Source: Sipunculus nudus
Lineage: Eukaryota; Annelida; Sipuncula; Golfingiida; Sipunculidae
NCBI GenBank assembly: GCA_026874595.1
Contig: CM049313.1
Location: forward strand, 52,193,659-52,257,658
DNA: 64,000 bases
Reading direction: 5' to 3'
Positions 5,660 to 63,839 of the stretch are shown here, in pieces. How positions within the stretch are numbered: position 1 is the stretch's first letter; the number at the start of each line of letters is the position of its first letter. The notes under the pieces were generated by a model. It was not told the origin of the DNA. It made no database searches and saw nothing but the letters and a program-made list of their open reading frames with translations. A program made the position numbers and the translations under genes.

Positions 5660-6240
5660 TATTAGGTTTCAGTGTATGACCAAAAATTGTTTAATTGTAT
5701 TTCATATTGATTGATGTATCACAAAATGCATATCATAATGGCATTGGTTATCAAATTAGTAATACAGGAAACTATTTCAGTGAAAGGAAATGTATGTTGA
5801 ATAGATAAAACAACATCTTAAAGAATCAAACACATTAGGTATAGTTCATTTATTGTTAAGACATGAGAGAGCGCAATGTCGGACACAAAAATATTGAAGG
5901 AAACACAGTGTTAATTTAACCCATAGATGTCTTAGGTTGTTCTTGATAATTTATGAAAGATCATATAATTTACCACTTGATAAGACTAAACGAAAAGACA
6001 AAACAAAAGGACAAATCCATTCGCGCAAAGTTTAAAATTATGTCAGTATTTTTTTATCAATTCTTATAAAATAATGTGCAAGGAGTTGTCAGTCCACCCT
6101 GCTATTATTTGGGCAGATATATTGTTCGAAAGTAATTGCTTTATCACAGTAGACGACGCCGTGTATATTCTCTGTACCTTGTCGGAACTTAATATTTATC
6201 AGAGCGCCTTGCAAGGATACAATTATTGATATCAGTATGT
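5660..6240. other. Spacer upstream of duplicated block Z0
   Basis: No gene is visible. A short stretch near 6,080-6,110 ('gcaaggagttgtcagtccaccctg') has a look-alike at about 23,475-23,500, so the receptor-locus duplication may start slightly upstream of the block annotated at 6,240. Confidence 0.4.
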
Positions 6241-8110
6241 AATAAATGTTTACCGAGACATAGACATTTGGCTCTTTCCATCACTATAGACCAGATCAAT
6301 CTTCTTTGCCCTTTGTTCATTCATGAATGTCCAATGAATCAACGATCAAATTAGTCTTCCTGCAGCTTTCTCGAGGAACGGTTCCCTTTGGAGGAGATGT
6401 TTTCTTTTTAATCTGAGCGACTGAACCGGTAGGAATGTGGGCATGCAATGGAAATCCCGGGGACATTTACCAGAGATTTATCGGAGAAACCCATCCAAAT
6501 CTACAGAAAGATCTGAGAGGCAACGATTAAGTTTTATTTCTTAAGGCTTTAGGGAGTTTTAAGCCCGATAAAATCCAATGAATAAGAGGGAAAAAATATT
6601 ATTAGTTAATACTGGCATTTGTGTTTGCTTCAAATAAAGTGACAAGAATATTTTTTGATCTAAAATTATAAACAGTGAGACAGGTGTAAATTTTCGTATA
6701 TATTTAAATATTATTAAAAAATATTTGATTCTTGTTTTCCTCCCAAACCATACTTAACTTATTTTTTATGAAGAGAATGTTCATTATTAATTTTTGAATT
6801 TCCTCTATGTATAAAGTAATGTATTTAATAAATGTAAATTTCATCGTTTAATACATTTAAACATAACATATTCTATAATAGCTTCAAACCTGACGCAAGC
6901 ACGTTATTTGGTTCTTCTTGTGAAATTCTGATAAACATTATGGATATAAATAATACTGAACAATACAGAAGAAAGACATTTTAAAGCCTAGGCAATGATG
7001 TAGGGTACTTCCTATACATAACCTGTCAAAGTGTCCCAGTGATAGTTATTCTATAAGATCAAAATATAGACATAGGCGCTTAATTGTTTATAATGTAGTA
7101 TTTCTTATAATGTTATCCATTTGATCAAAGGTGTAGGAAATAATGTTGCATGATTCATTATTTTAATTAATCTGCTGGGTGTAAAACGATAACATGCTTT
7201 CTTATCTTTATATGTCATCACTATTTTTTATAAAGATTCATGATGGTCGAGGTTAAAGGTCGATAAACCTCAAAAAGTCATATGAGGATTTCTTAATTGC
7301 TACATGAGGTTGAAATTGTTCTCAAAACTCTAAAAGAGAATCCCAGATGTGAGATAAACAGATTTCTAGGCAAGAGGTCATCAGACATGTTCTTGAGAAC
7401 AATTTAGTTCATTAAAGGTTTAAAGTGGGGAAATGTCACCATCTTAAATCACATACTTTAGCTCCAGTTGCCTCTCCAATCGTCATATCATGTAATTGTA
7501 AACTTGCTTTTCACATGGTGCTTGCACAACACCTGTATATGAACTGCTGCGCCACTTTTTTATTCTTTCAGCACGCAAAAGCTTAAACCGAACACGTCTG
7601 AGACAGCATTACTGATATTGAACCTATTAACCTACTTCCATAACTGACTGTCCATTCTTGAGATACAGGAGAATGAAAATCCCAGTTAGGTTGTATGTGA
7701 AGACACATATTTAATTTACCCTATTTGTCACAATACAAATTAAGAGAAGCTACAATATATAAACAAACTGATTCCCTGAAACGTATGCCAAAATAACTAA
7801 GTTAGAAAACGTTTACAGCTGACAGAAGGACAGCAATATATTCACCCACACCCTTATTTCAAACAAACTTCTCCCTGTCCCCATGCCACTATCGATTTAA
7901 GTCCTTCGTGAACAGGGCTCTCCCAGCAGAAGGAATGAAAAATCACTGAAGCTGTAACTAGCCAATCAAATGGTTGAGTCGGGTGTTGGCGCCTTTTTAT
8001 TTATATTGAAGTCCAGAACAGATGTTAAGAGAGGAAGACGGCCTCGCTGCTTATAAACGCACCAGTGGCGGCTGTGTTACAACAGGCGGGCTATATGCAA
8101 CAAAAGACAA
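6240..8110 (+). repeat. Duplicated receptor-upstream block, copy 0 (Z0+P0)
   Basis: This block matches the DNA upstream of the intact GPCR at 62.8 kb. Shared landmarks in order are 'cttctttgccct' (6,302), 'tgaaccggtaggaa' (6,422), 'gggacatttacc' followed by 'agaaagatctgagagg' (6,460-6,520), 'atggatataaataatac' (6,940), 'aaaccgaacac' (7,585), 'gcaatatattcacccacaccc' (7,831), and a promoter-like segment at 7,960-8,010. The same order is found at 28.86-31.33 kb and 56.27-61.56 kb. No receptor coding sequence can be read in the 1.5 kb downstream, where one would expect it from the intact copy, so the unit is probably non-functional. Confidence 0.78.
7962..8010 (+). promoter_or_regulatory. Promoter relic P0 (CCAAT + TATA-like)
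   Basis: CCAAT at 7,962-7,966 and TATTTATA-like sequence at about 7,998-8,006 align with the CCAAT and TATA boxes of the intact receptor promoter at 61.39-61.43 kb. Flanking sequence also aligns: 'gtccttcgtgaacagggctct' upstream matches 'gtccttcacgaacagggctct' in the intact copy. This is the best-preserved paralogous promoter, although no open receptor is attached. Confidence 0.6.
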
Positions 8111-11060
8111 ACAATATTAATTATTTGTCAAACCATAATATCAAGCATTGTGGCATTCTTGGAAATATTCATCTATACAAATATGCAAGGTACAGAAATT
8201 ATTACCATATGGATGAGTGAAATTATTGGACATTTAGTGTAATTTGTAGTTTCAAAGAAAGTGATAACATTCATTTTTTTCATACTGCGCATGACTTTTA
8301 TCTGATAATTATATAAAAATGCATGACAGTATAATAATAATTCTTATTAATATTTATTCTTTTTTTTAGAAAATTAAAATTTGTCACTTAAAGGAAACGA
8401 GCAATCACGACTTTATGATATCTGTTTAACATCATTATGAACCAAGCATCGAATATAGATTAACTGGTCAAGAATGAAAATAGCTCATTAGACATTCTTA
8501 TTTGTGGCAGAGATTAATAAAATTGTGTTGATAATAAACATTTTCTTTTTAATGTTAACACCAAAAGATGTTCCCTCCGGAAAATATCACGCACAGCGTC
8601 GATGATATGCAATACCTGTGATCATACAGAAATATAATGCATATATACAAGGTGGTGTTTACGTTCCTTTATAATGAAAATATATATATACATTTGCTGT
8701 TATAACCTATATAACACATTTCAAAACATACATGTTGACTGGTTTTACCTTTATTTTAATAAATGTCCCTCTGTTAAACATTCTCCTCGAAGAGTTATCA
8801 CATATAAATATTATATCCATATTACACTTTTTCATTGCTATTTAATATTATGGCAGCTGCCATCCTCAACGTAAAATTAATCTAATTGAGATTAAGCAAA
8901 AGCTTGAGATGTTCTAAATTGTAGGGATACGATTGCAAATAAAGGTTTCGTTGTAAGTGCAAACTTAAAACGTTTTACTAAGTCTTACTTGAGATTATAG
9001 AACACATTCCACCATGTGAAACATTTTTTTTTGAATATCATGAATATGTTTCAACGCTTCTCATCAAGAAAACCAGATGTGCGTCTCATATAGTGAGGAC
9101 GATAATGTCCGGTGACCATGAACTTAAAATTGTTGCTTATTGTTTTGTAACCGTATACAGTTGAGTTCTTAAGTTATATTGGAAACATACTTGGAAATGT
9201 AAATGAAAATATATATTTTCTGTAGGATATTGTCTCAATAAGATATGCACAACTATTCGCAATGTTTACATTTGTTTTGTTGTGCTGTGCTTTTGGCAAG
9301 AACTTCATGTAATGGTTTGTTTACCTGGTCAGTGATGGTGTTTATATATGCGAACCGGAATGGGACGCTGGCGCATTTAGGTTTCGATGACCTTTGACTG
9401 GTGACTGTTGTTGAAAGCATAATGGATAGGTTGATATGAGGCAGACATGACAGATGAATAAAATGTATCTTTCATCAAGCACTTGAATTGATATCTTCAC
9501 TGCTTACACACGATATCTCCTTCCAATTTCTAGAAAAAAAGGGGCAAGTTTACAGGGGTCATTGAAACCTGCATAATCTAACTGGTAACTCTGGCCTGAT
9601 GGAATTTGCTCCAGAGGTGGGTAATATCTGTGTGTGTGTGTTCTACTAGCCTATATGCTTTGTCAAGGTATCTTGGATCATGCTCATGGCCTTTATGGAA
9701 ATCAGGAGGCTATCTTTAGGCGTTGAATGGATAGGAGAGCCAAGTTCCTGTTTCGGTATAGCACCCTGTACTCTTGTATAAACCTTGCTACGAGTATCCG
9801 GATCAAGCTTATTTAAAGTTTCCACTACCTGCACTACTAAAGACATTCTGAGTTGTGATACATCGGACTATTTGTTTTCAAACATCTTAACACCAAGGTA
9901 TGTATATTAAAAAAAAACGAATCCGAACTCTAGAGGAATAGTGGCTGCTCAAATGAATTCATTAGACCAAATGAGTTCATCTGACAAGACAAATAATTGG
10001 GGTATCAGGTGCGAGGGAGCTATGGACAAATGTAATGTTGACACCACGTTTGGTCGGGTATAAACAAACGTCTACTTACACACAGCTGGCAAATTAAGCT
10101 TCAACATTTGACTTACCTTAGAAACGTTTACCCTAGGTAAACGGTGCCCATGCAAGTCCGACTATTCAAAAGGTAAGCATAAGGTAAGCAATCAGTTAGC
10201 TCACTTTCAATGGAACTGTTGTTTGTTATATGTCTGAAGCATTAGCCTCTCAATTAAGCATTGAAGAAAATGTACAACTTAAGGGTCGTTCAAACCACAT
10301 CGAATGATCTCAGATTCAATATACATTGCAAACAAAGAGTGAACTGCATATACCTATCTTAATTCGCATAAGTCTTCTGTCTATACTTGTGCAAAAAGCA
10401 AGCAGATAATTTCAGCTGACTACAATCAATCATGCCCTAGTCAAGTATGCAATTAATAGTATGTTTAACATGCAATGGTTAACAGGCAAGTCTATGCAAA
10501 TATTTACAAATTACATGCATGGATGCGAAGCAGCATGCGAACAACTCAAACAAATACAAAAAGTTCACTATCTATTGCAGTAACAGTCCCGTTGTTTAGA
10601 AACACTTTCGCAGCTCCACCTCAGGTTTTCGCGGCTGATCAGGCCGTGCCTATGTCCAGCATGAAGAGCCGATTCTTACACAAGATTATGAAGTTGGCGC
10701 TCTCAATCACATACAATGAAGAAACTACAATACAGCACAAGGCGGAAGCACAACAGTGACAACACAGTAAACAGGAAACATGTAACAGTTGAAATAATCC
10801 TGTTTGGATTATTGTCCACGTGGCCACTTTTGTTTACTAGCAGGTCATCCTAGTAAATCAGGAAAAGTCTACTTTAATAAATTGAAAGCTTTAGTGAGCT
10901 GCATTCCATTGATGATTGCAAAAAGGAAATCTTATATGATGCTTTGATGTATTTATAGTTAGAAAAGCGTGGTTATAGAGCACAGCGGAAAGCGGAACAG
11001 TTTTGAATGCTCTTAAAAGTTCATGCAAAAACACCAACTGTACATGCGTATGAGTGTGTT
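8110..11060. other. Mostly empty region after P0
   Basis: No receptor remnant, mobile-element protein or RNA gene was recognised. A 66-codon minus-strand ORF (9,646-9,846) has a protein-like composition, with helix-like L-N-K-L-D and D-T-R-S-K-V segments, but matches no family I know. It lies 1.2 kb inside the minus-strand side of the candidate LTR at 11.09 kb, so it could be an unrecognised retroelement fragment. A short palindromic 'ttaccctaggtaa' occurs near 10,128-10,140. Confidence 0.35.
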
Positions 11061-11071
11061 GAATCCTCCCG

Positions 11072-11089
11072 TCCTCACTCGGGGCACCA
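11072..11089 (-). other. Candidate retrotransposon primer-binding site
   Basis: On the minus strand this reads TGGTGCCCCGAGTGAGGA. It begins with the TGG expected to pair with a tRNA 3' CCA end, and it lies three bases inside the presumed end of the LTR at 11,093. The exact donor tRNA cannot be named from the sequence alone. Confidence 0.5.
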
Positions 11090-11092
11090 CAA

Positions 11093-11712
11093 TGTACCGC
11101 CGGGCTTATCAATATGCACAGTTATTGCCGGGCGGCGGATTTCTAGTTAGAAGAACATATAACGAAAGGCTGACAGCACAACTCAATTTCTTTTATTCCT
11201 TCGGTGTATATGCAGGAATGTGCAGGTCTGACCTGCTAAGACAAAATACTGCCGATAATACACAAATGCGATGTATATCTTAAACGCTAATATATTTTAC
11301 ATAATACAGTAAAGCCGGTAATATTCTTACCGTACACAATTATAGGATACCACGTGAATGCCTAGGAAAAACTCTATATTATAGTCATTCCAGACATATT
11401 ATGACGTAAGACATAATACATGTTCGAAAAAAAAAACATAGGAATGTTAAAGATAAACCCTACAGTGTTATAATACTGCTTTTTAACACTGACATTTCAA
11501 TGCATATTTAGATATACCTGCAAAGACATAGGACTGCAGGTAATACATAAAAAAAACACGTCCACTCCGGGAACTTGAATGCGCAGGGCCACAGTCAAAA
11601 ACCCTGATGTTGTTAGGCGGGGCAAATGCAGAGACCGAGACCTGCGCAGACAATGAGCAACCTGACAGTGTGAAAAACACAGGGGAAAACTGAGAAAACA
11701 CAGGGGTTCACA
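11093..11712 (-). mobile_element. Candidate LTR (about 620 bp, solo or truncated element)
   Basis: Read on the minus strand, the segment begins TGTGAACCCC and ends CGGTACA, the usual TG...CA boundaries, and is followed three bases later by a primer-binding-site-like sequence. It contains an AATAAA about 110 bp before the 3' boundary (plus-strand TTTATT near 11,191), consistent with an R/U5 organisation. No second LTR and no gag-pol can be recognised on the minus-strand interior side, so it would be one LTR of a deleted element. The left boundary (11,712) is chosen only because of the TGT...ACA ends. Confidence 0.45.
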
Positions 11713-12119
11713 ATATAGCAATTAAAATAAGCAAATCATTATTCGTATAGCTATGATATCATTTGATAGCGTAACAAAAATAACATTTGGTAGCGTGCTA
11801 ACTGCTCATTAATCAAAGAAAATGACTGTGAAATGTTATTTATAAACGCTGGTCAAAAACCTTACATCAATCTTTATTAAATTATAGAATTTTAGGTCAT
11901 TCATATTTAATTGAATATCCTGGCAGCATTTCTAGAGATTTTGCACCTATTGTTTGAGTTTTTAATTTTTTTATGCACGCATTATTTTTTTTTCATTGAT
12001 AAAGATGATGGCGGGTTAAATAATGATGTCTGCCTGTATCATTTAAGCCACAATATTTCCACAAATTCTCGAATCATTCCATATACATTTGTTGGAGAGT
12101 AGCGAGAGGAAAGATAGGT

Positions 12120-13000
12120 TCTAAATCAAACTTTCTGAATCAAAAGAGACTTCATATTTGTACCCTAGCTTCTTATGTGTGCAGTTACTGGTATTTATAA
12201 TCAGCTTTTCAGAGGTAAACAACAGGGTTATAAGAAAATTTACAATTCCTTAAACTCATCAAAGGAAGTATAGCCATTCCTTCATTCCCCAGATTACCAG
12301 GTTTCCTTTGAATATCATTTTAATGCATGCAGTGGTTATCATATTTTCCTTATCTCATCTGCCTTATATAAACATTAATACCATGTACAACCAAATGGTG
12401 TAAGCGATGATGTAATGATGTAGGCGATCATTCTCCTAACTTCTAGCGTTAAGCACATTTTTAACATATCAGGCACAGGACTTAGACTAATACCTGCATT
12501 ATATGACAACAGGGCAAGTGACAATGTTGACTGATATCTGCGGCTGTGGCTATCTGGAACCTGTCTTCTTAGTTAGAGCACTACTTATCTTGATTACTAA
12601 CCTTGAATTGTGGCGCTAAACAGTGCGAGTGTAAAGTCGAGGTGGTCCACCACTTCCTTATGTCATCCTCTAGAATCATTTTAATTTTATCTGATCCGCA
12701 CTTAGATATGATCACCGAAATCAATGTGAAAGAGTTCATTAAACAAATCAAATCATATAAAACAATATGAAACAACGCTTGAACATGGCCGTACCACACA
12801 GTAGTGTAGTTCATAAGAATGGATACAGTTTTATCATTAGTTCCTGTCCGCTTTAAAGCCCAACACTTTGGTAACGCGTACCACCTTTCAAGCGCGATAC
12901 ACCGAACAAGTGTACAGGCGTATTCTCAAATATATATTTCTCTACATTTTTTAGATGGCTTCAATGATCACTTGCGTATCGTTATATGGTTATGTAATGA
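12120..13000. repeat. Duplicated block X, copy 1
   Basis: This aligns by eye with 27,480-28,250. Landmarks are 'gcaagtgacaatgttg', 'gcggctgtggct..ctggaacctgtct', 'tatcttgattactaaccttga', 'cctctagaatca', 'aaacaatatgaaa' and 'atacagttttatcattag'. Several short ORFs here (e.g. 12,581-12,814 minus) have no conserved frame in the partner copy, so the block is treated as noncoding duplicated DNA. Confidence 0.75.
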
Positions 13001-13788
13001 TTTGTAGCTATCTTGTAACATCTTCCAACCCCTGTAGCGGCACGTTATCCCTGGAATAACACTATCAAATATTCAACACAGATGAAGCACAAGAGTCAAA
13101 AGGACTAACCATTTAAATCCGTAGGGTTTGTTCCAGTCGAGTTATGTAGATACATCACATAATTAATGTTGCATGTTGATCGACATTACCCCTTTAAAAC
13201 GTTTGAAAGTAGATTTATCAGTTGCTCCCTCTCTGCAAAATATCGAGCTGCGATAAGCTTAACTTTGCTTGGACAGTAACAATTTATTAATTACATGACC
13301 ATTTACAGCCCCTTTCGATCAAACAAGTTTGAGGAGGAAAGAATTATTTCTCTGAGAACAACCGTTAGGTAGATAATCCTTATAATGTTTACGTTCTGGA
13401 TTTAAAACGAAACTGTGGTTAGGTGTATACGATTACAGAATACTGTGTCCGCTTTTGTTAAACACCCTCTGCTTATATGCCTTAGTGTCCGATCCAACTT
13501 AACGCCTTGATTCATGGAATATTTGCCGGTACATTTTTGTTTTCCAAGCTTAAAACATTGTCACCAATGGAACAATCGCTCCAGGCAAACCCAGGGCTGT
13601 TGGACATGTTGAATACAGATATGGTCATAGAAAACATAAGGAATTAACTATCTTGACCAGACGTTTGAAGAGCTTCTTTCAAAGATAACAGCTCTTTGCA
13701 ACATCCGGACTGAATATTTCAAGTCAACTGAAGCTCCTCAAAGCCATTGATATTGGTTATAAGATCTAAATATGGGTCCTTCCTGTCC
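13000..13788. other. Spacer, nothing recognised
   Basis: No gene, RNA or repeat boundary is apparent. It separates block X1 from the 186-bp tandem array. Confidence 0.4.
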
Positions 13789-14350
13789 ATATCCCTTGAC
13801 AAGAAGTTCAATTCACATGTTGATCACACTAGCGAACACATGTGACCCAATACTTTATATATAGGTTTTTCTTATGCAGTTTCAGAATACAGAGTCTCGT
13901 GGAAACACTAAAGCTTATTTACTTGCCTAATACCTTGCGGTTGGCTCTCTTGGTGTTTTAAACGAGCAGACAAATATCCCTTGACACAGAAGTTCAATTC
14001 ACATGGTGATCACACTAGAGAACACATGGGACCCAATACTTTATATATAGGTTTTTCTTATGCAGTTTCAGAATACAGAGTCTCGTTGAAACACTAAAGC
14101 TTATTTACTTGCCTAATACCTTGCGGTTGGCTCTCTTGGTGTTTTAAACGATCAGACAAATATCCCTTGACACAGAAGTTCAATTCACATGATGATCACA
14201 CTAGAGAACACGTTTGACCCAGTACTTGATATAAATAGGTTTTTCTTATGCAGTTTCAGAATAAAGAGTCTCGTGGAAACACTAAAGCTTATTTACTTGC
14301 CTAATACCTTGCGGTTGGCTGTCTTGGTGTTTTAAACGAGCAGACAAATG
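13789..14350. repeat. Tandem array, 3 copies of about 186 bp
   Basis: Three head-to-tail units start with 'atatcccttgaca' at 13,789, 13,974 and 14,160. Each ends in 'tcttggtgttttaaacga.cagacaaat'. Units differ at only a handful of positions, far fewer than the other duplicated blocks nearby, so this expansion is recent or homogenised. No coding frame spans it. Confidence 0.93.
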
Positions 14351-14679
14351 CACTCTGAGCTGAATACTCTAAAGATATTAAACTTTCGTCCTGGCGCCAT
14401 CCGCACAAATGAAAAATGAACTTATGCATTTGATATATAGTACAAAATATTTTTTTCTAAATGAATATCAAATTTAATTGATATTGGGGTAGTTTGTATT
14501 AATCAGACTCCTCTTCTCAAGCAAAGACTGCGCTTCTTAGAAAGAGCGATAATGCTAGGACTGCGTGATTGGAGGTTTGCTATATTAATTTTAAGATAAA
14601 CAACTGCATTTTCTTAAACAAAAATATACAATCCTTCTTTACGTTTTTCAACATCGATGCCTCTTCTACAAAAAAAAAG

Positions 14680-14760
14680 CTTTCGCAATTGTACTTTATC
14701 ATTCCATAAACAAATAATTAAGCAGGGTCAAAAAAACACTTTATCGAAGCTTATGCTTTC
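14680..14760. repeat. Duplicated block W, copy 1
   Basis: The sequence 'ctttatcattccataaa....gcagg.tc....aacactttatcgaagc' also occurs at 23,258-23,308. In both places it lies upstream of block Y, supporting a shared W-Y order. Confidence 0.65.
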
Positions 14761-14761
14761 T

Positions 14762-15115
14762 GGAGGAAACACCGACACTCGATGTATACTTTACAGTCCG
14801 CACTAGGCCGGCCGACACACAACCTTTTGAGGAGGAAACGCTGCCACCTCAATTATACTTAACACACCCTAATATTTTCAGGAATAAACACAGCAGTTCC
14901 GTGTATCCTCAACAGGCCCTTACTTAGCACGGTTGGCACAGACACTAATGTTTTCAAGAGGAAACACACAAAAAATCATGTATACTTAACAACCGTCATC
15001 ATGCCTAGCTGGCACAGACACTAATGTTTTCAGTAGGAAACACCCCGAATTCATGTATACCTAACAGGCCCTCACTAGGCAGGCCGGCACAGACACTGAT
15101 TCAGGAGGAATCATT
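14762..15115. repeat. Diverged minisatellite, unit about 76 bp
   Basis: About five degenerate units carry 'gaggaaacac...', then '..tgtatact(t/c)aacag.cc', then 'actaggc.ggc.ggcacagacactaatgtttt'. Unit starts are near 14,762, 14,830, 14,878, 14,954 and 15,030; the second is shortened. The partner locus at 23.3 kb has no such expansion, so the array arose after the W-Y duplication. Confidence 0.8.
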
Positions 15116-15169
15116 ATATATTATCAAAAATAAATAGTGTTATCCTGTACGTGTCACTGGACACCTGTT

Positions 15170-15559
15170 TTGATTATACCTTACCTCATAATGGAGTATT
15201 AATCCATTGAGCAGTGAATCGAACGCTGTAAACGCTGTCATTCGTAGGTCTGAAACATATGTTGGTTCTATAAAGTAAGGTATACAGAAGGTAATATGTA
15301 AGTTAGCGAAAACCAAGTTCTGGAGGCTTATACATACACATAGTCACGGACGGATTAAAATTGCGAGTTTAATGGAAGTTTTTGTTACGGTCCTTGTTTC
15401 TAGTTGTTCATAAATATCTTAACCATTGTTGGAAGTGTGGTTGGCCTAAGGTAGCGGAAAAAACTTAATTAATACACAAAATACCCCGCCCCGATATGAT
15501 CGTGCAATAATTGAAGGCGTGTAACGATATTAAGAAACAGGGAGTGTAACATAATCATG

Positions 15560-15614
<55 letters not shown>

Positions 15615-15742
15615 CTTTCTTTTCTTAAAGGTGCATTTACCGGGCGCACGGTATGCGAAAAAAGACTTTTATATCAAAATATCTAAATTTTAAATATTAA
15701 AATTTAACGATATTAAGAAACAGGGAGTGTAACATAATCATG

Positions 15743-15809
<67 letters not shown>

Positions 15810-16330
15810 CTTTCTTTTCTTAAAGGTGCATTTACCGGGCGCACGGTATGCGAAAAAATACTTTTATATCAAAATATTTAAATTTTATTCCTGTCATGTT
15901 TTAAAGCAACCACTTAGTGTCAAAGGAAAGGATCACTTTATGAATCGTTAATAGTAAATTGGAATTGCAAAACATAACTAGATGTGTTTGGTCTTACGGC
16001 TAAATGGATAAATAGACCATTATCTTTATTTCTGTGTATATATGATTTCCCATTTTCTTTAATTTGTAGCCGGTCTCACAAATGACCAGCCTGGTTCATA
16101 GGTGACACTCAGAATTATATAGAATAATTTGAATTAAAATATATATTATAGTGATTAAGATGACCTAAAAAAGTTATTGATTCGTTCCTAGTGTGTTGCA
16201 CTAAGCTTCCACTACGTTCCACCAAAGTCAGTTAAATACTTATTTGTGTAGTTGCTATAGTATTCAATAATGATAGTGACGTATAAAGTGCTAAATCCTA
16301 TTTTCATTCACGTTAATCCTAATGGTCTCC
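15170..16330. repeat. Duplicated block Y, copy 1
   Basis: This matches 24,500-25,450. Landmarks are 'gcgaaaaccaagtt', 'catacacat', 'atatcttaaccatt', 'cacaa.ataccccgcccc', an (AT)n tract, and then 'cttttcttaaaggtg.atttaccgggc'. An internal duplication of this copy is annotated separately. Confidence 0.8.
15522..15890. repeat. About 185-bp tandem duplication around an (AT)n tract
   Basis: Two units each read 'taacgatattaagaaacagggagtgtaacataatcatgata', then (AT)n (ending at 15,610 and 15,805), then 'gagactttcttttcttaaaggtgcatttaccgggcgcacggtatgcgaaaaaa'. Outside the microsatellite the units are nearly identical. The partner block at 24.9 kb has one unit, so the duplication is specific to this copy and recent. 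Confidence 0.9.
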
Positions 16331-17520: not shown

Positions 17521-17539
17521 GTGTTGATACACAGTGGAT

Positions 17540-17593
17540 CTGTCTATCTATCTAAATGTCCGTGTATCTATCTATCTATCTATCTATCTTCCT

Positions 17594-50735: not shown

Positions 50736-50783
<48 letters not shown>

Positions 50784-50981: not shown

Positions 50982-50985
<4 letters not shown>

Positions 50986-51024
<39 letters not shown>

Positions 51025-51599: not shown

Positions 51600-54300
51600 C
51601 ACGATTGCCCTTAAGTAAATTAGTCCGCTGTCGTTGTACATTACCTGCCTCTTCCCGCCAAAGCCGTTTTTCATAAATTATGCTGCGACATACCTTCGCT
51701 TCAGCAATAAAGATTATGGGTAAGAAATTCATCATTATGATAAACACGTGAGTGGATCGGAAATGTACAGGGTAGTGCGACGATAACTGCACAGGTCTTT
51801 GAACTTTTTCCGAGACAATCCTTTTTTTATAAGTCGAGAAGGCAATGATAGGCCCTGACTATTACAGAAAACTCCTGGAATACTCTCAATGAAAAGTAAG
51901 CAATTGATGTTGCAAATATATGTGTGCCCTGCAAACAAGTTCGCACCTATTCCTTTTTTTTTTTTTTGCTGGGGCTGCCCCCTTAATCCCAAAAGATCAC
52001 ATTCGTTTATGTAGCCAGTTTTTATATCGCAGTTCTTTCAAGAAACAATTAGTCAAGAGCTGCTATCTTCATAGCTTTATCAATAATTTACGTGTTATGT
52101 GTAAGCACATTTTGTGATATAAAGACATCCGTGAACATACCATGAATTCATGAAATTATTATTTCCGATGGAGGACACAATGGTTTGTTGACCTAACAAT
52201 CTATGTTCCGTATAAGAAGTTATACCTACATCATTTTATAATATGAAAGGAAATGCAATGCCTATACTATTTTTGGCTACAAATCATAAAGTGTGCAATC
52301 TGCATATAAACAAGGATAACCATGATTTTGCATGATACCACAAGGGGAAAATGACTGACAGTTCTGTCCTATCAGCTTATTTTGATAATTTGGGTCGGAC
52401 ATCATAAGCAAAATCTTCTAACATAGAGCAGCAATAGCTATTTGTCTAAGAAATAATGCATAACTTGGACTGAAGGCAGGTTGAAACTATTCCCTGAAGA
52501 CACAAACCGATCAGGAAGGCCACCATATTCAACATGATTATATTTTGTAGTGTAAAACTAAGTATAAAACTCCTTTTTCATTAATAGTTCTGTGCACGTC
52601 TTTTATCCGTCATATTGCTAATTATCATATATGGTTAAACCTGATTTAAATAAACAGCAAATACCTATGGTAGATAGACTGTCTGTTTTGTTTTTTACAA
52701 TGGGACTCGTTTACACCTAAGAAATCTTAAATTGCCAAGCAATTTAATTAATATTGGAAACATTTTTATCAATCAGTCAGTTATCTTACCTGTGCTTACT
52801 TTAGGCCAAATTTTCAAATTGCCAAAGTGCATGTACGTGCATTGGCGACTTATAATTCATATATGCGTTATGTTTGTTATGTGACCCGGAATCCTTTATC
52901 GAACGCTTATGTGCATTAAAGGATGAAATATACTATGGGAATACATAGATTATGCATATATTATATTAATACTATATCTTAATTCATATAACATATATTA
53001 GTTTGGTCTGGTATTAACATTAGGAGTAACTCGTGTTATATTAAAACTGCTCAGTTCTAGTCGAGGTTGGATAACCCGATCTAATTAAGTAAATAGAAAA
53101 AAGACAAACGTCAAGATTTATGGTCTTATATATTGGTTCTCCGCTTTTCTACTTTGCCCTCCCTTCATTCGAGCCATTTCATTTTTGAAGCTTTTCTCGT
53201 CCAACTTCGGGGCATACAAAGCAAACAATTTAGGCACCAGAAGGCAATCTCTTCTATATTTGCATGCCCCTATGACCAGTACCCGTACACTCCCGGATGT
53301 AGAGAGTTTGCTACTATAGTAAATACTTTGGCTAGGTGTCTCAGCACAGGAAGCAGAACGAACGCCCACAATCTTTCGGTCACAAGTCCAGCACTCTAAC
53401 CACTCCACAGTTTGTTTATGGGTCTGAGTTTCTAAGGGCTCTGAAACTTCTTATAAGCGTATCTAATTCATTCGCTTTTGTGTCAACTATCTTCCGAAAA
53501 CACACATATTGGAACCTTATTCAAATTGGACAGAAGGTGATCGATTCGTTCTCTGCCTGAAGAAACATGACGTAGACAAACATATATATTCGGGCTTTAA
53601 CGTTAGAGACATTTAATAATACCGCAGAAATCAAGGAATCAATTCATATTTAAAAGGTCAAGGCATCATCTTAGGATAGTAAAATATTATTTTTAAATAC
53701 GGTTTCACATGGTTAAACGGTTAATACTCCGATTCCCTTACTGGCGTTATAATGGAAAAAGTTTGCAACGTCCGTGATTATGTTGTACGCCACAAATAAC
53801 AAAGATTACTGAAGTTTTTTTATTTAACGCTGGCTAGTTTTTATACGGAAAAATATGTTTTTCAAACAGATGATGTTAATGAATTTCTCGATCGATCCGT
53901 CTGTCTTTTGTGGTCTGTAAGCTTCAGCGTTTATTATGGATTCAAGTCAGAGATAAAGCACCGTTAAATGACCTGGAATTAAAAACCCGACATCAGGTAT
54001 TGACAACAAGGTAATGGGATATTAACAAAGCATTAAATTATACCTTGGTCCATATCTACCGTACAACAGGTTTTACAGAAGATTAAGCCGGTATTTCCAT
54101 TTAATTTACCTCAAAGTGCCATATCATATGGTTTATCTTACCATTGTAAATATCGTATACCAGCAATAATGATTCCTCACACTGCAAGGCAAAACTATAA
54201 TTAAACAATAATTTCATTCTGTTGCCTTATCGAACAGGATTTTTTTTTTCATTTAGACATTAAGTGTTATTTAAAAATTCTCTACCTGTCAATTATAGCA
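51600..54300. repeat. Duplicated block D, copy 2
   Basis: Partner of 47,500-49,620, longer because it contains the SINE at 53.1-53.4 kb and other unshared sequence. The 'cttcagcgttta' segment is at 53,922 and the 'ggaaggccaccatattcaacatga' segment at 52,514. Confidence 0.72.
53120..53410 (-). mobile_element. tRNA-derived SINE, copy 2
   Basis: On the minus strand a tRNA-like head reads GTGGTTAGAGTGCTGG (A-box region, 53,388-53,403), then CTTGTGACCGAAAG, then GTTCGTTCTGC (B-box, 53,353-53,363). Their spacing matches a Pol III internal promoter. The body continues to about 53,120. It lies inside block D copy 2 but is absent from copy 1, consistent with insertion after the duplication. Head and body differ from the SINE at 21.7-22.05 kb, so two SINE families are present. 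The overlapping 96-codon ORF is simply the SINE. Confidence 0.7.
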
Positions 54301-54903
54301 TTTAATAAGATGATGAGACAAATATCATCGACAGTTGAAATGGTGGCAGGATTGTAGTGTGAATATAGAACACACTTTTAGAAACATATTTTGTCATAAC
54401 ATTGTTTTCGAAGTTTTCTCTGGTGCTAGTAATCTGTTGCCTCCACGAGTGGATTATTAATTAACATTCATAACATTCATGAAAGCACCCTTAATAATGC
54501 AGTTTTATCTTACCCATGGCTCAAAAGGTAATTTAACACAACCTGTCTTTCTGTTAAATTAAACCAATGTATAATACATAATTAAATTTCATAAATTCCA
54601 TAACTCCAATAGCAAATTGTAAAACAGGAAACGCATGAGTATTAAAAAACGGACAACTGAAGAAAACTCCTTAATTAATGTACTTATGAACATTTTGAAA
54701 GATATGTTACTAATGCAGGCGATTATGAATACTATTGAAGAATAAATCATATCAAATTGCTGTATTGATGCTTTTTGTATTGATATGCCTAAATATCTTA
54801 TAAATTTGATCCCTTATGTGCTTTAGCTGTATTTTTATATTCATTGGATTAGTGGTTGAAGTGAAAAACCTAATCATGAAAGACTAACGAAATAATCGGG
54901 GAA

Positions 54904-54905
<2 letters not shown>
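54300..54905. other. Spacer, nothing recognised
   Basis: AT-rich sequence between block D2 and the AT tract bordering the Penelope-like fragment. Confidence 0.4.

Positions 54906-54907
<2 letters not shown>

Positions 54908-54961
<54 letters not shown>
54908..54961. repeat. (AT)n microsatellite
   Basis: Pure AT tract lying directly at the 3' end of the minus-strand Penelope-like fragment. Confidence 0.97.
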
Positions 54962-54966
<5 letters not shown>

Positions 54967-55780
54967 GAAGGTAGAGTTACCCTTCGATGTAAAGTGCTCA
55001 ATGGCATACAGACTAGGCCAGAGGGATATAACACTGAAGAAAAACAAAACTTAAAATTGTCTGTTTCATGGGATGTGACTCGATAATCAGGTGAATGTTG
55101 TTAGAATGGGGGCGTTGCTATAAGTAGCTTTTCAGACAAATAGAGATAACACTTTCTGGTCCCACAGAAGTAAGGTGCTTCCGGGGCAGAGGTTTCCCAG
55201 GAGAGCCTGTCATTGATATTGTTGTCTTAAAGTGTCCATATGTGTTTAGACAGTTCATTGCTTTTAGCGTGGGATCCGTAACTAAAGGATTGTTTGTTGT
55301 TTTGAAATCACCTTCAGTAGACCCTATGTAGTGTTTCTCGTCATTTTCTGTTCTAACTGTTGCCTTATAGACAATGCATCTCAGCTGACACTGGTCATAA
55401 ATGGGACAATCATCCTTTATACGGCTGTTACATTGCTTTTGACGTACATTTACAGCTCTGTTATTATTTAGGACCTTTATAATATGTTTGTAAATCAGAT
55501 TAAAGCTGATGGGTAAACAGCTATAGCTAGTTTTTCAATTTTTTCCTGTTGAATAGCTTGTGATACGTTTTATGTTTTGGAAAGTGTTTTTCAACTAGTT
55601 TCATGAATTGTCGGCCAATATTAGCTTTACATGACGGCTGTAGAGGAGATTGAACCATGCTATTTTCCTTTTCCTGTTTCTTTTGCTTTTCTTTGTTGGT
55701 TCAACATATTTTATGCTTTCTGAAAACCCGCTTTTCGCTAAAGTTTTGCAATACATGGGTTTGGCTTTCATAAATAGCTC
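54962..55780 (-). pseudogene. Penelope-like element, C-terminal part with GIY-YIG endonuclease
   Basis: Minus-strand translation across frames gives, in order: a basic KETGKRK then IAWFN..YSR stretch (near 55,690-55,640); the segment KANIGRQFMKLVEKHFPKH; a cysteine-rich segment reading CN.RIKDDCPIYDQC (near 55,430); KHYIGSTEGDFKT (GIY-YIG core, HYIGSTEG at 55,311-55,334); ELSKHIWTLKDNN; and APYFCGTRKCYLYLSEKLLIA ending near 55,107. This order matches GIY-YIG retroelements of the Penelope-like group downstream of RT. Stops and frameshifts are scattered, so it is dead. The 5' part with RT is missing. The end abuts an (AT)n tract. Confidence 0.78.
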
Positions 55781-55784
55781 TTAA

Positions 55785-56265
55785 TTGCAAGATGTGTCAG
55801 GTGCCCGTTACTGATCATTATAGGCATCTGCCTGAAAATTGCTTGGGGGTGATTCGATTGTGCGTCGATACAGAGCGGATCATTGTTTGGTTTTCTGTAA
55901 GGGTAGAAAATGTCACTTTGGATGTCAAGTGTTACGTCTTAGAAATTTGTGCAGGTAAGGTTTGTTTCAATGGTTATTTTTCACCCAACATGGGAAAAGA
56001 ATTTGGTATTTTTTTACGGGTGCTCTCTGCATTCAGTCCAGACATGTTGGGGAAATAACCTAAACCGTCATCTCGATACAGGCTTAGGACATTTTCACCA
56101 AATTCCAACCGAAAATTAGAAGAACGGTTTTAATGTGTTCTTGCGGCCACGTAAATGTATTCACGTGGTTAAATCTAATGAATAGTCAATTTTGAGAAGA
56201 TTTTACGTTGACAGCATGATATCTGTTTAATAAATGTAGGACTGTGTCATATCGGGGTGACATTG
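55785..56265. other. Spacer, short unassigned ORF
   Basis: An 88-codon ORF (55,792-56,058, plus) is open but has no recognised motif. It immediately precedes block Z3. I see nothing else. Confidence 0.3.
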
Positions 56266-56269
56266 CTTA

Positions 56270-58255
56270 TCTGCAGATTGACCAAATAAGACTATCATTT
56301 GTAAGAAACGCACACATATGAAATATCTGCTTTAGCTTAATACATAATAAACATTGATTACATGAAAATTAGACGAATCAGTCGAATATGGATTCAATAA
56401 TCAACTAAATCAAACATTCAACTTGGCGTTAAAAGTAACACAATTACGTTAATTTGAAAGGCTGTAAGGCAAAATTAAATAGGCACTACTCTGAGCTAAC
56501 CTTGCATCTCCGTTTCTGCATATAATTTTTCATGAGCATTACGCTAATGGAAGAATACTGATTTAGAAAACAGGTTAATTGTTGTTCATTGCATGTTTAA
56601 TTGCTATTTAACCCCTTGTAAAGTCTTACGGTTTATTGTTTATTCTTAAGTTAACAACTAAATATGAAAAAAAAATGTTTCTGATTGATGCCTTCAGCAA
56701 GTCATGTCTTTGCCCTCATTTCATCAGTAAAGCCAAAAGAAATAAACTGCCCGACCACAATTATCCTTAGAGAGTTTGAGGAAGTTAATACACAATTTAA
56801 AGTAAAGGCCTTCTGATTGCAGTTTTAATGTTTTGTTGCCGACATGCCGACTATGGGTTATTTAACTGTCATTTGCCTTTTCGATGAAAAAAAATTAAAT
56901 AAAAGTTATTTACTAGTGTAATTCCCCATTTTAAAGAATAAAAACAAACTTATTTTATGCTAAAAAGAGCAGCAATGTATATACACATTTCATAAGGACG
57001 ATAGAACACGGCCATTTCACATATATCATGATGAAAGCTGTTTAAAACTTATTTTAATGTTATGCTACCCTCTTTGTATATATCAATGTCAAAATAAACT
57101 CATAAAGCAAGATGTGCCTGCTGTAGAGTACAAAATGCATTCTCGGGGTAAATACCTGACGGTTTGTTACATCGTCATTTGACATATATGTTGAAGGTCA
57201 GGTATGTTGATGTGTGGAAATGAGGGACTACGAAGGACTACGGGATTAAGTAATATAGGTTTAGACATGGTTCGAAGGGGGTTCCTTTATCAGGCTGGGC
57301 GACTCAGTATGTAATTCTCGCTACCAAATTATAACTAATTACTAATCAACGAATCAACTAATTATGCAGGGAAAACAATTATAAAACCATAGTCTTGTCA
57401 CCCTCTTTGACCATGCAAAACGGCTCATGCCATTACCATAGAATAAATCCTTCTTCTTTGCCCTCCCTCGTCTTTCAAGGTTCTCTGTCCATGATCAAAT
57501 TATATATTCTGGAGTGGTGACGAAGAACGGGTGCCTCTTGAAGATGTGTAATTTATTTTAATATCAGAGTGAACCGGCAGAAATTACGCCATTCACCGGA
57601 AGTACCGAGGAAATTTGCCGCAGTTTGATCAACGAGACGCATACGATTCCAAGGAAACGCTGAAAGGAAATGGCTCACATGAAATGCTTAAGGCTGAGGG
57701 GATGTTTCAAATGACCCTATACGTAATGAATAATATATAAAATGTGATGTATGTATTATTCACAACAGAAAATGCCAAAAAATAAGAAAAAAAAATATTG
57801 TCTATGTAATTAATTTCGGATTCCCTATATATATATCTTTCCGAAGTGTCTAAGTGCGAGTGTTATTGTATTATATAACTGATCGTATATTATCATTTTG
57901 TCATATAACCGATCTTTATCCGCTAATCTATCATATAGCTTATTGTTAACTGTTTGTCGATCATTTAAGTCTATGCGGGTTAAAAATAATGTTCTAGAAA
58001 CTCCGAAGGAGACTCCCTGAATTGAGCTAAATACAATATTTTCTTTAAAGGGAATTCAAACAGGAAACTGTATAGAATAACATAGAACACACAGGATAAA
58101 AACCGAACACGACGTTAGAGGTAGCACTACAGACATGAACCTTATATCACCTGCTTCCGTAACTAACTTACAACCTTTATAGGGACATGGTAGAAAGAAC
58201 ATCTGTTATTCGTTGGTCACACTTAACAATAGATTAACTTGATTAATAATTGGCT
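56270..58255 (+). repeat. Duplicated receptor-upstream block Z, copy 3 (intact unit)
   Basis: Aligns with Z1 and Z2: 'tcatatcggggtgacatt.cttatctgcag' (56,249-56,283, matched at 28.83 kb), 'acgctaatgga' (56,541), 'tatttaacccct' (56,604), 'ttcagcaagtca' (56,693), 'cgaccacaattatc' (56,752), 'gatcaacgagacgcata' (57,627) and 'atgaccctatacgtaatgaa' (57,711). It continues with 'aaaaaccgaacac' (58,099) as in copies 0 and 2, then is interrupted at about 58,255 by unit-specific DNA before the promoter block resumes near 61,220. This is the upstream region of the only intact receptor. Confidence 0.78.
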
Positions 58256-58834
58256 TATATTAGGGGTGGGTATTATTTTACAAATTTCGGAAATCCGATA
58301 CTCTAACCCCCTGAATTTATGTACCTGCATATAAAACCTTTGAAGATTTTTTTTCAAAATTTTCTTTCAAGTGTAACCCCCTGTATACCCCCTCTGAAGT
58401 TTGCATAAAATATTAAAAATACATTTTTTTCAGTCTTTTCATAGATTCTTCACCTCCTTTATAAATTGGGCTTTAACACCGTTTGAAGTTGTGCCAAATG
58501 TACTGACATGATCATATTAACTGTTATTGATGTATTATTACTATAGTTCATTGGTTTAATTAGTGCATTGCCATAGCTTTGCCACAAAATCTGAATAAAT
58601 CATACAAATTGCAAATGATGCATAGCCATAAAACCATACGTGACATTGATATTATCAAAACATATACTGGTATACTACTGTTTAAAAGCTTACCTATAAC
58701 TCATAGAATAATAAATATGTTCAACGCACTGCTATAAATATTTTTGGACTATTTTAAGTGGAAAAATCTGTCGGAAAAGTAATGGGCTGAACAAAATCTA
58801 CATTTGCCTAACACAATCCGATTACTGCCCTTGT

Positions 58835-59265
58835 TTAAAGATTTATCAAGAAGACATGGTTTTGTTCTATAGCCTTGTCCTGCAGTGAATGTGTTTACAA
58901 CAGTATAGCAAAATATTTCAAACAGAATAATACACAAACTATATTCCGCTTGTAAATATATCCTTTAAGTGCTACAGATAAAGACTCACGGGTTCAGGGC
59001 ACCCTTTTGGGTCATTTCTCTCCTGTATGGATTGATGCTTTTGTTAAAAGATTTAAAAAAAGACGTGGTTTTGTTAGCCCAAACTTTTGTTCTATAGCCT
59101 AGTCCTACAGTGAATGTGTTTACAACAGTATAGCAAAATATTTCAAACAGAATAATACACAAACTCTATTCCGCTTGTAAATATTTCCTTTAAGTGCTAC
59201 AGATAAATACTCATGGGTTCAGGGCGCCCTTTTGGAACATTTCTTTCCTGTATGGATTGATGCCA
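58835..59265. repeat. Tandem pair, period about 225 bp
   Basis: 'gtgaatgtgtttacaacagtatagcaaaatatttcaaacagaataatacacaaact' occurs at 58,885 and 59,110 with almost no differences. Flanking phrases 'gctacagataaa.actca.gggttcagggc.ccctttt' and 'tcctgtatggattgatgc' also repeat. A recent duplication. Confidence 0.93.
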
Positions 59266-59416
59266 ATACTTTTGCAGATGGAAACACCTTAAAGTCCTTT
59301 TTAGTTATAACTATAAAATAAATGGACAGCATCTCCCTAACAAATCTCATATAAAATCTTATTTGTGTGGAGGTCTCTATCTGTATGAAGAAATGATGAT
59401 AATCTGTTTCTTTCAG

Positions 59417-59539
59417 CTGGCAAAAAAATATGGCATAAAAACAAGGTCAAAGTACAAGATGATTCTTGAGGGAGATCATGCCTCCAAACAGGTCCTGGTG
59501 AATCCTTTAGGAACCCTTAAATCAAGTAATATTAAGTGA
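59417..59539 (+). pseudogene. Exon-like ORF after a good splice acceptor
   Basis: A pyrimidine-rich acceptor 'tctgtttctttcag' at 59,403-59,416 is followed by 40 open codons and a TGA (59,537-59,539). The peptide starts LAKKYGIKTRSKYK and continues MILEGDHASKQVLV. It looks more protein-like than nearby chance ORFs, with balanced Lys, Gly and hydrophobics. No partner exon or family is recognised. It could be the last exon of a gene captured by, or carried in, the unit-specific insertion, or a cryptic exon. Confidence 0.3.
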
Positions 59540-60839
59540 ACTATAATCTTTTAGCTATATGATTGTAAACACCTTGATGTGAAATTTCCCTTTTCATTGT
59601 CTGTTTCAAGTAAATTGCATATGATTTTTCAAAAATTATTACATGGGTTTTCTTATTATTTGTTGAACACGTTATTCTTAGATATAGTTAGAGATGGTGC
59701 CAGAGACTTTGGAATCATCTGTACATTTGGTATCTTTGAACATTTTTATGTAAGTTTAATGGTCCATTTATGAGTGTCTTCCAAACTTTATCAATATTAT
59801 AAAGCATTCATTGATAAAGATGTTTCATTTAACCGTGCATTATGTTTTTTTTTTGTGAGTGGGAGTAAAACTTTGGCAAAAACAAACACACAAATGGCTA
59901 CAACGTTTTAAACAATATACCTCGAGTCATGCACTTTTATGTTTTTATAGAGCCTGGTCCGTTCTTTAAAAGTGTTCATAAATTTTATACCGTAGTTAGA
60001 TTGAACTTTTGAGGATGAGAGTGGCTGTATATTTCCCTTTCATTCATTTTATCATAAATTTATTAAGCTTTTGTGAATTTCAAACAATGATAACATATCG
60101 ATATACCAAGAGCAAAAATTGTTTTTATGCAAATATCAATGAACCACAACTTTTGAGAGGTGTGTACATGAAGGTTAGTCTGAATCAATTAAATATTCTA
60201 AAAAAATATTTTCAGCCATTTAAAAAGATTCCCCACATATTGGAGGGATAAGCACAGAAAGTTTTAGTTAAAACGCCTCACGACCTCTTTATTTTGTAAT
60301 GGCTGCTTTTGTTCATAGAGAGGTATTCTAGTATTTTTTTTTTACCAAAATGTATAAATTATGCTTTTATATGATGCGAATTATCAAGTATTGAGCTTAA
60401 ATCTCGATAATAATTTGGATATCATTACTTGCATGTATTGATTGTTCATTATATTTGCCAAAATATATTTTTTTCTTGAATAAAAAGCAAATATAGAAAA
60501 ATACCTAGTAAAACAAAGTAATGTTAGTTATATAGAGGCATATCGTCCAAAAATATTGTATGTATGGTGGTTTACATGTCAGTAAATAAAGAAAGACTAG
60601 AGGTTTGCAATTACTCTTAGCGATCACTGGAATCCCCCTTGACGCTCAAAACTGTAATTGAGACGATAATTGGGATTAAGATATACAGTCTATGACCATA
60701 AAAATTAAGTCAAGGTCCAAAGTAAATATCAGGTGCAACTCTCTCACCTCAGACTAATGTAATGCGGAAAGGTTAGTTTTTGAAAATCGGCCTTATGTGA
60801 GATCTAGCACAAACAAGGCAGAAGACAGAAAAAAAGGTA

Positions 60840-61055
60840 AAATACCCCCCCCCCCCCCAAAAAAAAAAAGAATCATTATGGTTGTTGTACACTAGGGAAC
60901 CTGACAAAGTCCATAAGCAAGCAATGGAACCAAAATATAGGTAAAGTAATAAACTTATCAACCCTTGTAAGCCTTGTATCCTTATAGGTGTTGGATTTAT
61001 GAAGATTTTCACATTTTTTAGGATTTCACAGCCTTCAGAGGCCATGTACAGGGGG
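60840..61055 (-). repeat. Repeat-like segment with C/A homopolymers
   Basis: A 14-bp C run (60,845-60,858) and an A run sit next to sequence that on the minus strand reads 'atggcctctgaaggctgtgaaatcc' onwards. This resembles common mollusc genomic repeats from memory. No second copy occurs in the window, and the 90-codon ORF here has no support. Confidence 0.3.
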
Positions 61056-61219
61056 GTTATATTACTTTAAAAATTAAAAAAAAATATTTTTCCCCACATA
61101 TTTCCAACAGGTACATATTTTGAGGGGTTAGCTCATTAAGTTAGTATTAATACCCAAACTTCTCATATAGTCTCATATGCTGCAGGGATCTAAGATATTC
61201 ACAATTAAGCCTTTAAACA

Positions 61220-61454
61220 TGTGCACAGAATATTAAGTCAGCGAACGTTTCGAGTTAACAGTGGAACGGCAATATATCAACCCACACCATAATCAACAGA
61301 TCCCTGTCTCAATGTGACTTTTCGAGTGAGTCCTTCACGAACAGGGCTCTTCCTGTAGGAAGTATGAAAATTCACTAGAGCCAAGCAAGCCAATCAGGTA
61401 ACTGAGCGGCATGTGGGCGCCCTTATATATATGGCGTCGACCGCCATTCCAGAG
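61220..61454 (+). promoter_or_regulatory. Promoter of the GPCR (block P3): CCAAT and TATA boxes
   Basis: CCAAT lies at 61,390-61,394 and TATATATA at 61,424-61,431, followed by a GC-richer start region. Predicted initiation is about 25-30 bp after the TATA box, near 61,455. Upstream, 'gcaatatatcaacccacacc' (61,270) and 'ccttcacgaacagggctct' (61,332) are conserved in copies 0 and 2, so they may be further regulatory elements. Exact transcription start is inferred. Confidence 0.65.
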
Positions 61455-61563
61455 AAGCTTTAGGTAGGGGGAGACAGCCGATACTCAACAGCATCGGCTC
61501 ATACTGAACAGCACCGGCTCGTAGCTAGTTTTGACTCGAGAAGCGGGATACCTGCAGCGACCG
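61455..61563 (+). other. Predicted 5'UTR exon 1 of the GPCR
   Basis: Runs from the predicted start site to a strong splice donor CG|GTAAGA (GT at 61,564-61,565). It contains a small direct repeat, 'catcggctcatactgaacagcaccggctc'-like, at 61,491-61,520. No ATG in it opens the receptor frame. The 3' acceptor is at 62,761-62,763, giving an intron of 1,200 bp. Noncoding first exons are common in intronless-CDS receptor genes. Confidence 0.55.
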
Positions 61564-62011
61564 GTAAGAAAAAGTAATCGTTTGTCTGACTAATATTGCA
61601 AGCACTGTTTAGATCATATAAGCAAGTTCCTTTTAACATAAGCATCCATACAGTATTACAAAGTAACAGAGACAAATTTTCAATTGTACAGGTGATTATA
61701 AAGGACATCTAATCAAAACAACATTATATCGGTTTCACTTTCCAAATAAATATGTTGGATAAATGTTATTGTATTAAACAGTGTTTAGGTAATTTTACTT
61801 TTTAAATTATGTTTGATCAAAAATGACTTGCACAAGCATTATATTATAATAACAGGAGTTAATTATTATAAAAAAATGTTTGTAAAATCTTCCAAGAACC
61901 CTGTTTGTCTGGGCTTTATTCCATTTTTCTTTGGTTTTAAGTTATCGATTCGTGTATTTTGGAATATATGTAACTCTTTTATTAATGGGCCAACAATACG
62001 AAGCTTTTACC

Positions 62012-62012
<1 letters not shown>

Positions 62013-62055
<43 letters not shown>
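62013..62055. repeat. (AT)n microsatellite in intron
   Basis: Pure AT tract. Confidence 0.97.
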
Positions 62056-62059
<4 letters not shown>

Positions 62060-62253
62060 TGATCGGTGATATTAATTAATTGGCTTGATTATACGATAAA
62101 TGAATATATGTCATATTGCATTTTATAAATGATCAAAATATCTCTCATTTATATGGAAATGAGTTATAATGGTATGATTTTTTTATATACCAAACAAAAC
62201 ATATAAAGCATATATAGATATGCAATTTTTTGTGGAAATGAATTCAGTGAGTT

Positions 62254-62257
<4 letters not shown>

Positions 62258-62308
<51 letters not shown>
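62258..62308. repeat. (AT)n microsatellite in intron
   Basis: AT tract with one GT interruption near 62,272. Confidence 0.97.
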
Positions 62309-62314
<6 letters not shown>

Positions 62315-62454
62315 TTAATGTACTGGTTTCCTGCAATAAACAACTGCTTGGGTATGACACCATAGCTTTGTAAATATAAGAATGTCTCACGTGATGAGTG
62401 CAGGAACATGTGGCACGAAACTACATAGAAGTAAAATGTCTGTCAACATTTGAT

Positions 62455-62508
62455 TCCTCTCTCTCTCTCGCTCTCTAGCTCTCTCTCTCTCTCTCCCTCT
62501 CTCTCTAT
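62455..62508. repeat. (CT)n microsatellite in intron
   Basis: CT tract with several single-base interruptions, about 250 bp before the splice acceptor. Confidence 0.95.
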
Positions 62509-62774
62509 ATATTATACACGTGTGTATGTGTGTGCTTGTGTTATCGGCCATGTATTTTTTTTCGCTGTCCCGACCTCGGATCTTTGCTCATATATATATC
62601 AAGCCAAGAGCATACATCAAATTTAAAATAGAATATATTTGTTATCAATGATAAAAATAATATCACCCGAGCATTATATGAAAGTAATGTCCAAACAATT
62701 ATAAAAATTAAACGATTAAAGTACAGATACCTAATAATAATTTGGATCTCCTTTAAATTCCAGTTCCTGGCGGG

Positions 62775-63839
62775 ATGGCATGGGAAAATTCGAATGCCAC
62801 GCAAACCAACAACACGGAAACTGATTACTCGGCAACTTCTTCCAAATACGTCGAGAGCATATTAGAACACGTGTATCAGGCTACGTTTTACGCTTGCCAT
62901 GTGTCTGCAGCCGTTGCAGTGGTTGAAAATCTTGTAGTGATTATACTTTACTTTATCAAAAGTGGTTACGTAATACACCAGCGTAAGGCGTTCACGCTTT
63001 CCCTCGCTGCAGCTGACATGCTGGTCGGGGTCACGTGGTATCTACAAGCATATTTAATCAGTAAAAACGAGGCACTGAGCAGACTTATTTACACATGTTA
63101 CGATGGAATGCTCGCTGCGAGTGTTATATCAATTTTTGTAATGGTTCTGGATCGTTTTCTACTAGTACATCGCGCTCTCGTCCACCAACGGAAATGTGGT
63201 AAATCATGCATTTTGTCTTGTTGCGTTGGAGTATGGATCGGTTCCCTGTCAGCGAGTGCTACTCTGTCTGCATTGGATGCACGGATGAAGAAAACCCTCC
63301 CTCGAACCCTCTGGCCTTGCGGTCTTTGGCCTGTTCTTTTGGTTGCCCACATAGCTTATATCTTGCCCTCTCTAGCGACGTTGGCTACATTTCTTGGGCT
63401 ACATGTGGTAGCTGTGCGTACTCGTCTGAGAGGAAAACAACTGGTCCCATCGCACGAAATAAACAGATCACGCGGACGTGTCATCCGGGAGGCCAAAAGA
63501 TCCGTCTTGTTGTACAGCATAGTTGCCTTTTTCCAACTATTTGGAGGTGTACTTAGCGAAACTTCAAATTTATATCTAACCAAATTTTGTGGTATGAAAC
63601 CTACGCCTGGCGACTTCCTAATTTTACAACGCCTGAGCGGATTACAGCACGTGGCTTACTTCATACGAGCTACTAGTTCTGCCGTCAACCCCTGGATTCA
63701 CACTTTTCGCCGACAAACGATCAGCAAATGTAAATGCTGCCGGAAGACCTTACCTGGTTCAAGTGTGTTTAGCACAGAACTCACCAGCGATGGATACAGG
63801 AGAAGAAAGTCATCATCCACTAGTCTCCGTTATAAATAA
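62775..63839 (+). CDS. Rhodopsin-like (class A) G protein-coupled receptor, orphan
   Basis: A single-exon 354-residue seven-transmembrane receptor of the plasma membrane. The N terminus (residues 1-35) has N-glycosylation sequons at Asn7 and Asn12. TM1 (about 36-62) carries ENLVV with Asn52 at the conserved position. TM2 (72-94) has LSLAAAD with Asp81. Cys108 before TM3 and Cys182 before TM5 can form the usual extracellular disulphide. TM3 ends in DRF (126-128) instead of DRY. TM4 has Trp154. TM5 (188-214) has Pro198. TM6 (about 241-266) lacks the CWxP switch, reading AFFQLFGG. TM7 ends NPWIH (305-309) instead of NPxxY. The tail has a KCKCC palmitoylation-type cluster (319-322) and a basic/serine run RRRKSSSTS. 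The first ATG after the predicted acceptor is used, 11 bases into the exon. The ligand is unknown. Intronless coding, divergent switch motifs and clustered decayed paralogues suggest a lineage-specific chemosensory-type receptor, which is inference. Confidence 0.93.
   Translation: MAWENSNATQTNNTETDYSATSSKYVESILEHVYQATFYACHVSAAVAVVENLVVIILYFIKSGYVIHQRKAFTLSLAAADMLVGVTWYLQAYLISKNEALSRLIYTCYDGMLAASVISIFVMVLDRFLLVHRALVHQRKCGKSCILSCCVGVWIGSLSASATLSALDARMKKTLPRTLWPCGLWPVLLVAHIAYILPSLATLATFLGLHVVAVRTRLRGKQLVPSHEINRSRGRVIREAKRSVLLYSIVAFFQLFGGVLSETSNLYLTKFCGMKPTPGDFLILQRLSGLQHVAYFIRATSSAVNPWIHTFRRQTISKCKCCRKTLPGSSVFSTELTSDGYRRRKSSSTSLRYK

Follow-up and report, generated by a model that had tools for sequence, protein, structure and literature searches.

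A very probable birth-and-death cluster of class A G-protein-coupled receptor genes in Sipunculus nudus, grown by repeated tandem duplication

We analysed a stretch of 64,000 nucleotides of the Sipunculus nudus genome (hereafter the window; positions 52193659-52257658 of the forward strand of contig CM049313.1, GenBank assembly GCA_026874595.1) that encodes an open class A G-protein-coupled receptor (GPCR). The window very probably belongs to a birth-and-death cluster of such genes, which would have grown through three or more rounds of tandem duplication. This one locus holds tandem copies of different ages, some open and others dead. The five open receptors are spread over 438 kb of the same chromosome, the genome-wide receptor search having placed the other four at about -216, -90, -8.9 and +220 kb (coordinates are those of the window, negative values lying to its left). 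Receptors on both sides of the window put it inside the array, and not at one end as an earlier note made from the letters of the window had suggested; the copies which that note expected beyond 64 kb do exist, with an open one at about +220 kb. The joined sequence that we analysed covers 283 kb (-39657 to 243342). The earlier statement that most copies are dead holds narrowly (seven of the 12 recognised), in a count that from -216 to -40 kb covers 1.4 kb around each of two receptors and leaves dead modules there uncounted.

Of the old modules, four (D, A, B and C) could be made out, together with the first half of another (E). Their copies share one order on the + strand: the upstream blocks Y, Z and P, then the receptor. 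The dead copies are A, B and C, each present twice, and E. Within the window, D alone has a class A GPCR gene that is still open, the copy D2 (62775..63839). Self-alignment placed Z and P at 6121-6786 and 7529-8151 in A, at 28762-30184 and 30701-31341 in C, and at 56188-57812 and 61192-61608 in D, which confirmed the positions, order and strand first read from the letters. The fourth Z block (18437-19471, in B) leads into a receptor pseudogene, as had been proposed, since it runs into a receptor fragment at 19486-19636. Module A, as seen in the window by self-alignment and by the search with the D module, spans 3904..8151 and has by eye lost its donor GT. By the same means, B1 spans 18437..21793, and it has the same stop codon and truncation as B2. 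The dead module C1 (28762..31934, self-alignment) retains Z, P, the intron end and a receptor start without ATG (31617-31934, matching 62575-62902). The D-module search gave the first half of E, up to block Y, at 41374..49546; the Z of this module lies beyond the window (129162-129854), and no receptor was found in E.

In D2, block Y and the piece that follows it (51243..54862) match E at 47143-49546 and A at 3904-4224. Block Z of D2 showed no sign of coding. Two other blocks on the + strand are paired: X (15154..16723), upstream of B, has its partner at 24506-25776, upstream of C, and W (12222..12903) has its partner at 27494-28193, with its order relative to X reversed. The earlier note held W, X and Y to be non-collinear; this stands for W but not for X, which precedes B as well as C, nor for Y, which is collinear with module E. 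Its broader claim, that one GPCR locus was duplicated in tandem long ago, leaving dead copies, and later underwent deletion, is upheld by the shared order Y-Z-P-receptor and the four further open copies.

The largest feature of the locus is a young duplication, half of it beyond the window: -22442..49562 (unit 1) is repeated head-to-tail as 49563..123377 (unit 2). The units are 72-74 kb long and differ by 5.8% substitutions over 61,554 aligned bases. Their alignment assigns positions 1..49562 of the window to unit 1 and 49563..64000 to unit 2, both on the + strand; because much of the duplication lies outside the window, the first reading did not detect it. The end of one old module followed by the start of the next was found at -11 and at 40881, and the young copy gives 68412. 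Trees of Z show three age layers. Each unit 1 copy pairs with a unit 2 copy (96-100% where support is given), and B joins C with 100% support. The branching order of the oldest modules is weak, because their Z blocks are only 49-69% alike.

The 72-kb duplication might instead be an assembly artefact in which two diverged haplotypes of a single unit were lined up one after the other; the old modules would then still be real. The divergence of the units ranges from 1.7% to 8.6% (one microsatellite segment aside), as that of haplotypes can in very polymorphic animals, and our data come from a single assembly, in which the duplication could be an assembly duplicate. Yet the junction at 49563 lies in a 243-kb stretch without any N, and the microhomology between the end of unit 1 and the beginning of unit 2 amounts to only 3-5 bases, TGG(G)T, which we consider too few for an assembler overlap. 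Moreover, 17 of the 354 residues differ between the receptors D1 (the open copy of unit 1, at -8.9 kb) and D2. We regard an assembly duplicate as quite unlikely because the junction is gap-free and has microhomology. Just outside unit 1, at -25684..-23599, a segment of about 1,040 bp, within sequence that is retroelement-like by eye, is repeated head-to-tail at 100% identity; this repeat may have arisen very recently or reflect a slip in the assembly.

Divergence between the units is mosaic. At 13299..23190 there are 169 substitutions in 9,840 aligned bases (1.7%), against 5.5-7.6% alongside, and none of 1000 block permutations produced an 8-kb stretch of equally low divergence. This tract was probably homogenised later, by gene conversion or crossover. 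A second tract of low divergence lies at 39916..49567 (346 substitutions in 9,514 aligned bases, 3.6%). Inside the first, 0.5 kb from its left edge, a 186-bp minisatellite is present in three copies at 95% (13789-14349). Given this minisatellite at the edge, broken copies may serve as exchange points for the expansion of the array: the dead B, in a 9.9-kb tract homogenised between units long after the duplication, would be part of a recombination-prone core. We consider this idea unlikely.

The junction, the lesions shared by paired copies and the uneven divergence along the units make it possible to order the events. In the first round, an ancestral module of about 18.6 kb, made up of Y, Z, P, an intron and a single coding exon, would have given rise to D, A, E and a common precursor of B and C, which separated from each other later. 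D-A-B-C together with the beginning of E, about 72 kb in all, would then have been duplicated head-to-tail with the microhomology junction. By that time A had presumably lost its coding exon and B was already broken, so that pseudogenes were copied in bulk. The two units would have diverged by about 6% and one or two tracts been homogenised afterwards, while D1 and D2 stayed open and the remaining modules decayed. Growth of receptor families by birth-and-death is well known, and here the process is unusually legible. The growth of the array can be dated in relative terms, apparently by single-gene modules, then by a block carrying pseudogenes and a live gene, then by homogenisation.

The coding exon of D2 is an open frame of 354 residues. 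The motifs of class A GPCRs include an aspartate in transmembrane helix (TM) 2, a cysteine in TM3 paired with one in loop 2, a DRY-like motif, a tryptophan in TM4, NPxxY and CWxP. D2, D1 and R220 (the open copy at +220 kb) matched PF00001 with 34.7, 36.3 and 45.9 bits, above the cut-off of 30.5, which places them in class A. In their alignment we saw by eye DRF or DRL and the TM4 tryptophan; NPWIH replaces NPxxY, the TM3 cysteine is present in the D copies but not in R220, and CWxP is absent from TM6. The single sequence of D2 had no match at 0.001 among solved structures, and a profile built from the three copies gave 88 matching sequences with E values up to 1. The best of the 60 matches listed were aminergic receptors, each matched over part of the chain (muscarinic M3, 3.4e-7; histamine H1, 5.6e-7). 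We infer a receptor function, possibly chemosensory.

D1 and D2 are 95% identical, with a nonsynonymous divergence (dN) of 0.023 and a synonymous divergence (dS) of 0.054. Between the units, substitutions amount to 3.0% in the coding sequence of D and to 7.3% in the D spacer. Both copies have stayed open, apparently under mild purifying selection. Upstream of the D2 exon, block P (61191..61609, + strand, from a six-copy alignment) has by eye CCAAT-like and TATA-like stretches and a donor GTAAG at about 61566. It is followed by a putative intron of the 5' untranslated region that is rich in AT and CT microsatellites (61567..62768, + strand). The acceptor AG directly precedes the coding exon and by eye is retained in D1 and D2. 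The dead modules might owe their retention to promoters or upstream blocks that are still active, for example as enhancers shared across the array, an explanation to which we give little credence.

Blocks Z, P, X and W proved to be specific to the locus in genome-wide searches, in line with the earlier note; the finding by which that note would have been refuted, short unrelated repeats scattered over the genome, did not come about for these four. All eight matches of Z (query 56428-57812) and both matches of P are at the receptor locus, as are four of the five of W (the remaining one is short) and 16 of the 29 of X. A dispersed repeat or transposon inserted repeatedly near the receptor would also make the blocks recur, and the other 13 matches of X are short pieces of one part of about 150 bp, but within the sensitivity of our searches this reading is refuted for Z, P and W, and it is extremely improbable overall. 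Even at the locus, these searches missed the oldest Z and P copies; very old copies elsewhere could therefore escape detection. The D module, used as query against the 283 kb, gave 64 matches after a script had removed AT-repeat rows, 61 of them on the + strand; most are in collinear modules and some within the D module's own AT-rich repeats. The reversed query gave 14 hits, which by their coordinates are at its AT-rich repeats (around 54.9, 62.0-62.4 and 66.0-66.2 kb); Y, Z, P and the coding exon received none. When dinucleotide shuffles of the window were self-aligned, one of ten gave hits (two or three, the two listed being short palindromes).

Besides the single assembly, several observations weigh against the proposed history or its details. 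The position of W is unexplained, the oldest copies of Z are as dissimilar as given above, and one match of the D module (197095-197214) lies outside any module. The dN/dS of 0.43 comes from 32 differences only. Since the 3' flank of the D coding sequence is also low in substitutions (4.6%), in partial agreement with the coding sequence, the low divergence of the latter may be partly regional. Finally, the roles of P as a promoter with a 5' noncoding exon and of the intron are putative.

Vertebrate olfactory receptor clusters are tandem arrays with many pseudogenes, whose genes have a 5' noncoding exon and one coding exon. The Sipunculus locus resembles them in its tandem array with pseudogenes and in its putative 5' noncoding exon followed by one coding exon, but the receptor family is another and the copies are far fewer. 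Candidate chemosensory rhodopsin-like GPCRs of Aplysia are described as chiefly single-exon, clustered in the genome and without known close orthologues in other animals (Cummins et al. 2009, PMC2700072); the present locus is likened to these subfamilies by gene type and arrangement. The sea urchin Sp185/333 cluster is an invertebrate cluster with tandem segmental duplications and microsatellites, for which gene conversion is discussed (Miller et al. 2010, PMC3091723). It is like the present one in the duplications and microsatellites, but holds immune genes in microsatellite-bounded units of 4.5 kb, whereas here the old modules measure about 18.6 kb and the young units, joined by microhomology, about 72 kb. 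Loci of this kind supply lineage-specific receptors, possibly chemosensory.

Some other elements were noticed at the locus. At 55121-55534, on the - strand, an open reading frame (ORF) resembles by eye a Penelope-type GIY-YIG remnant; it had no Pfam match at 0.01. An imperfect foldback of 1.7 kb (33197-34938) matches its own inverted repeat at 78%, and unit 2 retains about half of it (106765-107615). By eye, the ORFs at 165973-170174 suggest a broken Ty3/gypsy-type retroelement. The PF00001 search of the genome (1.43 Gb, 153 contigs) gave at least 148 matches. Among those listed, nine form a second GPCR cluster at 49.8-51.7 Mb of another contig (C16), eight on the + strand and one on the - strand, and five of these nine have one internal stop codon.
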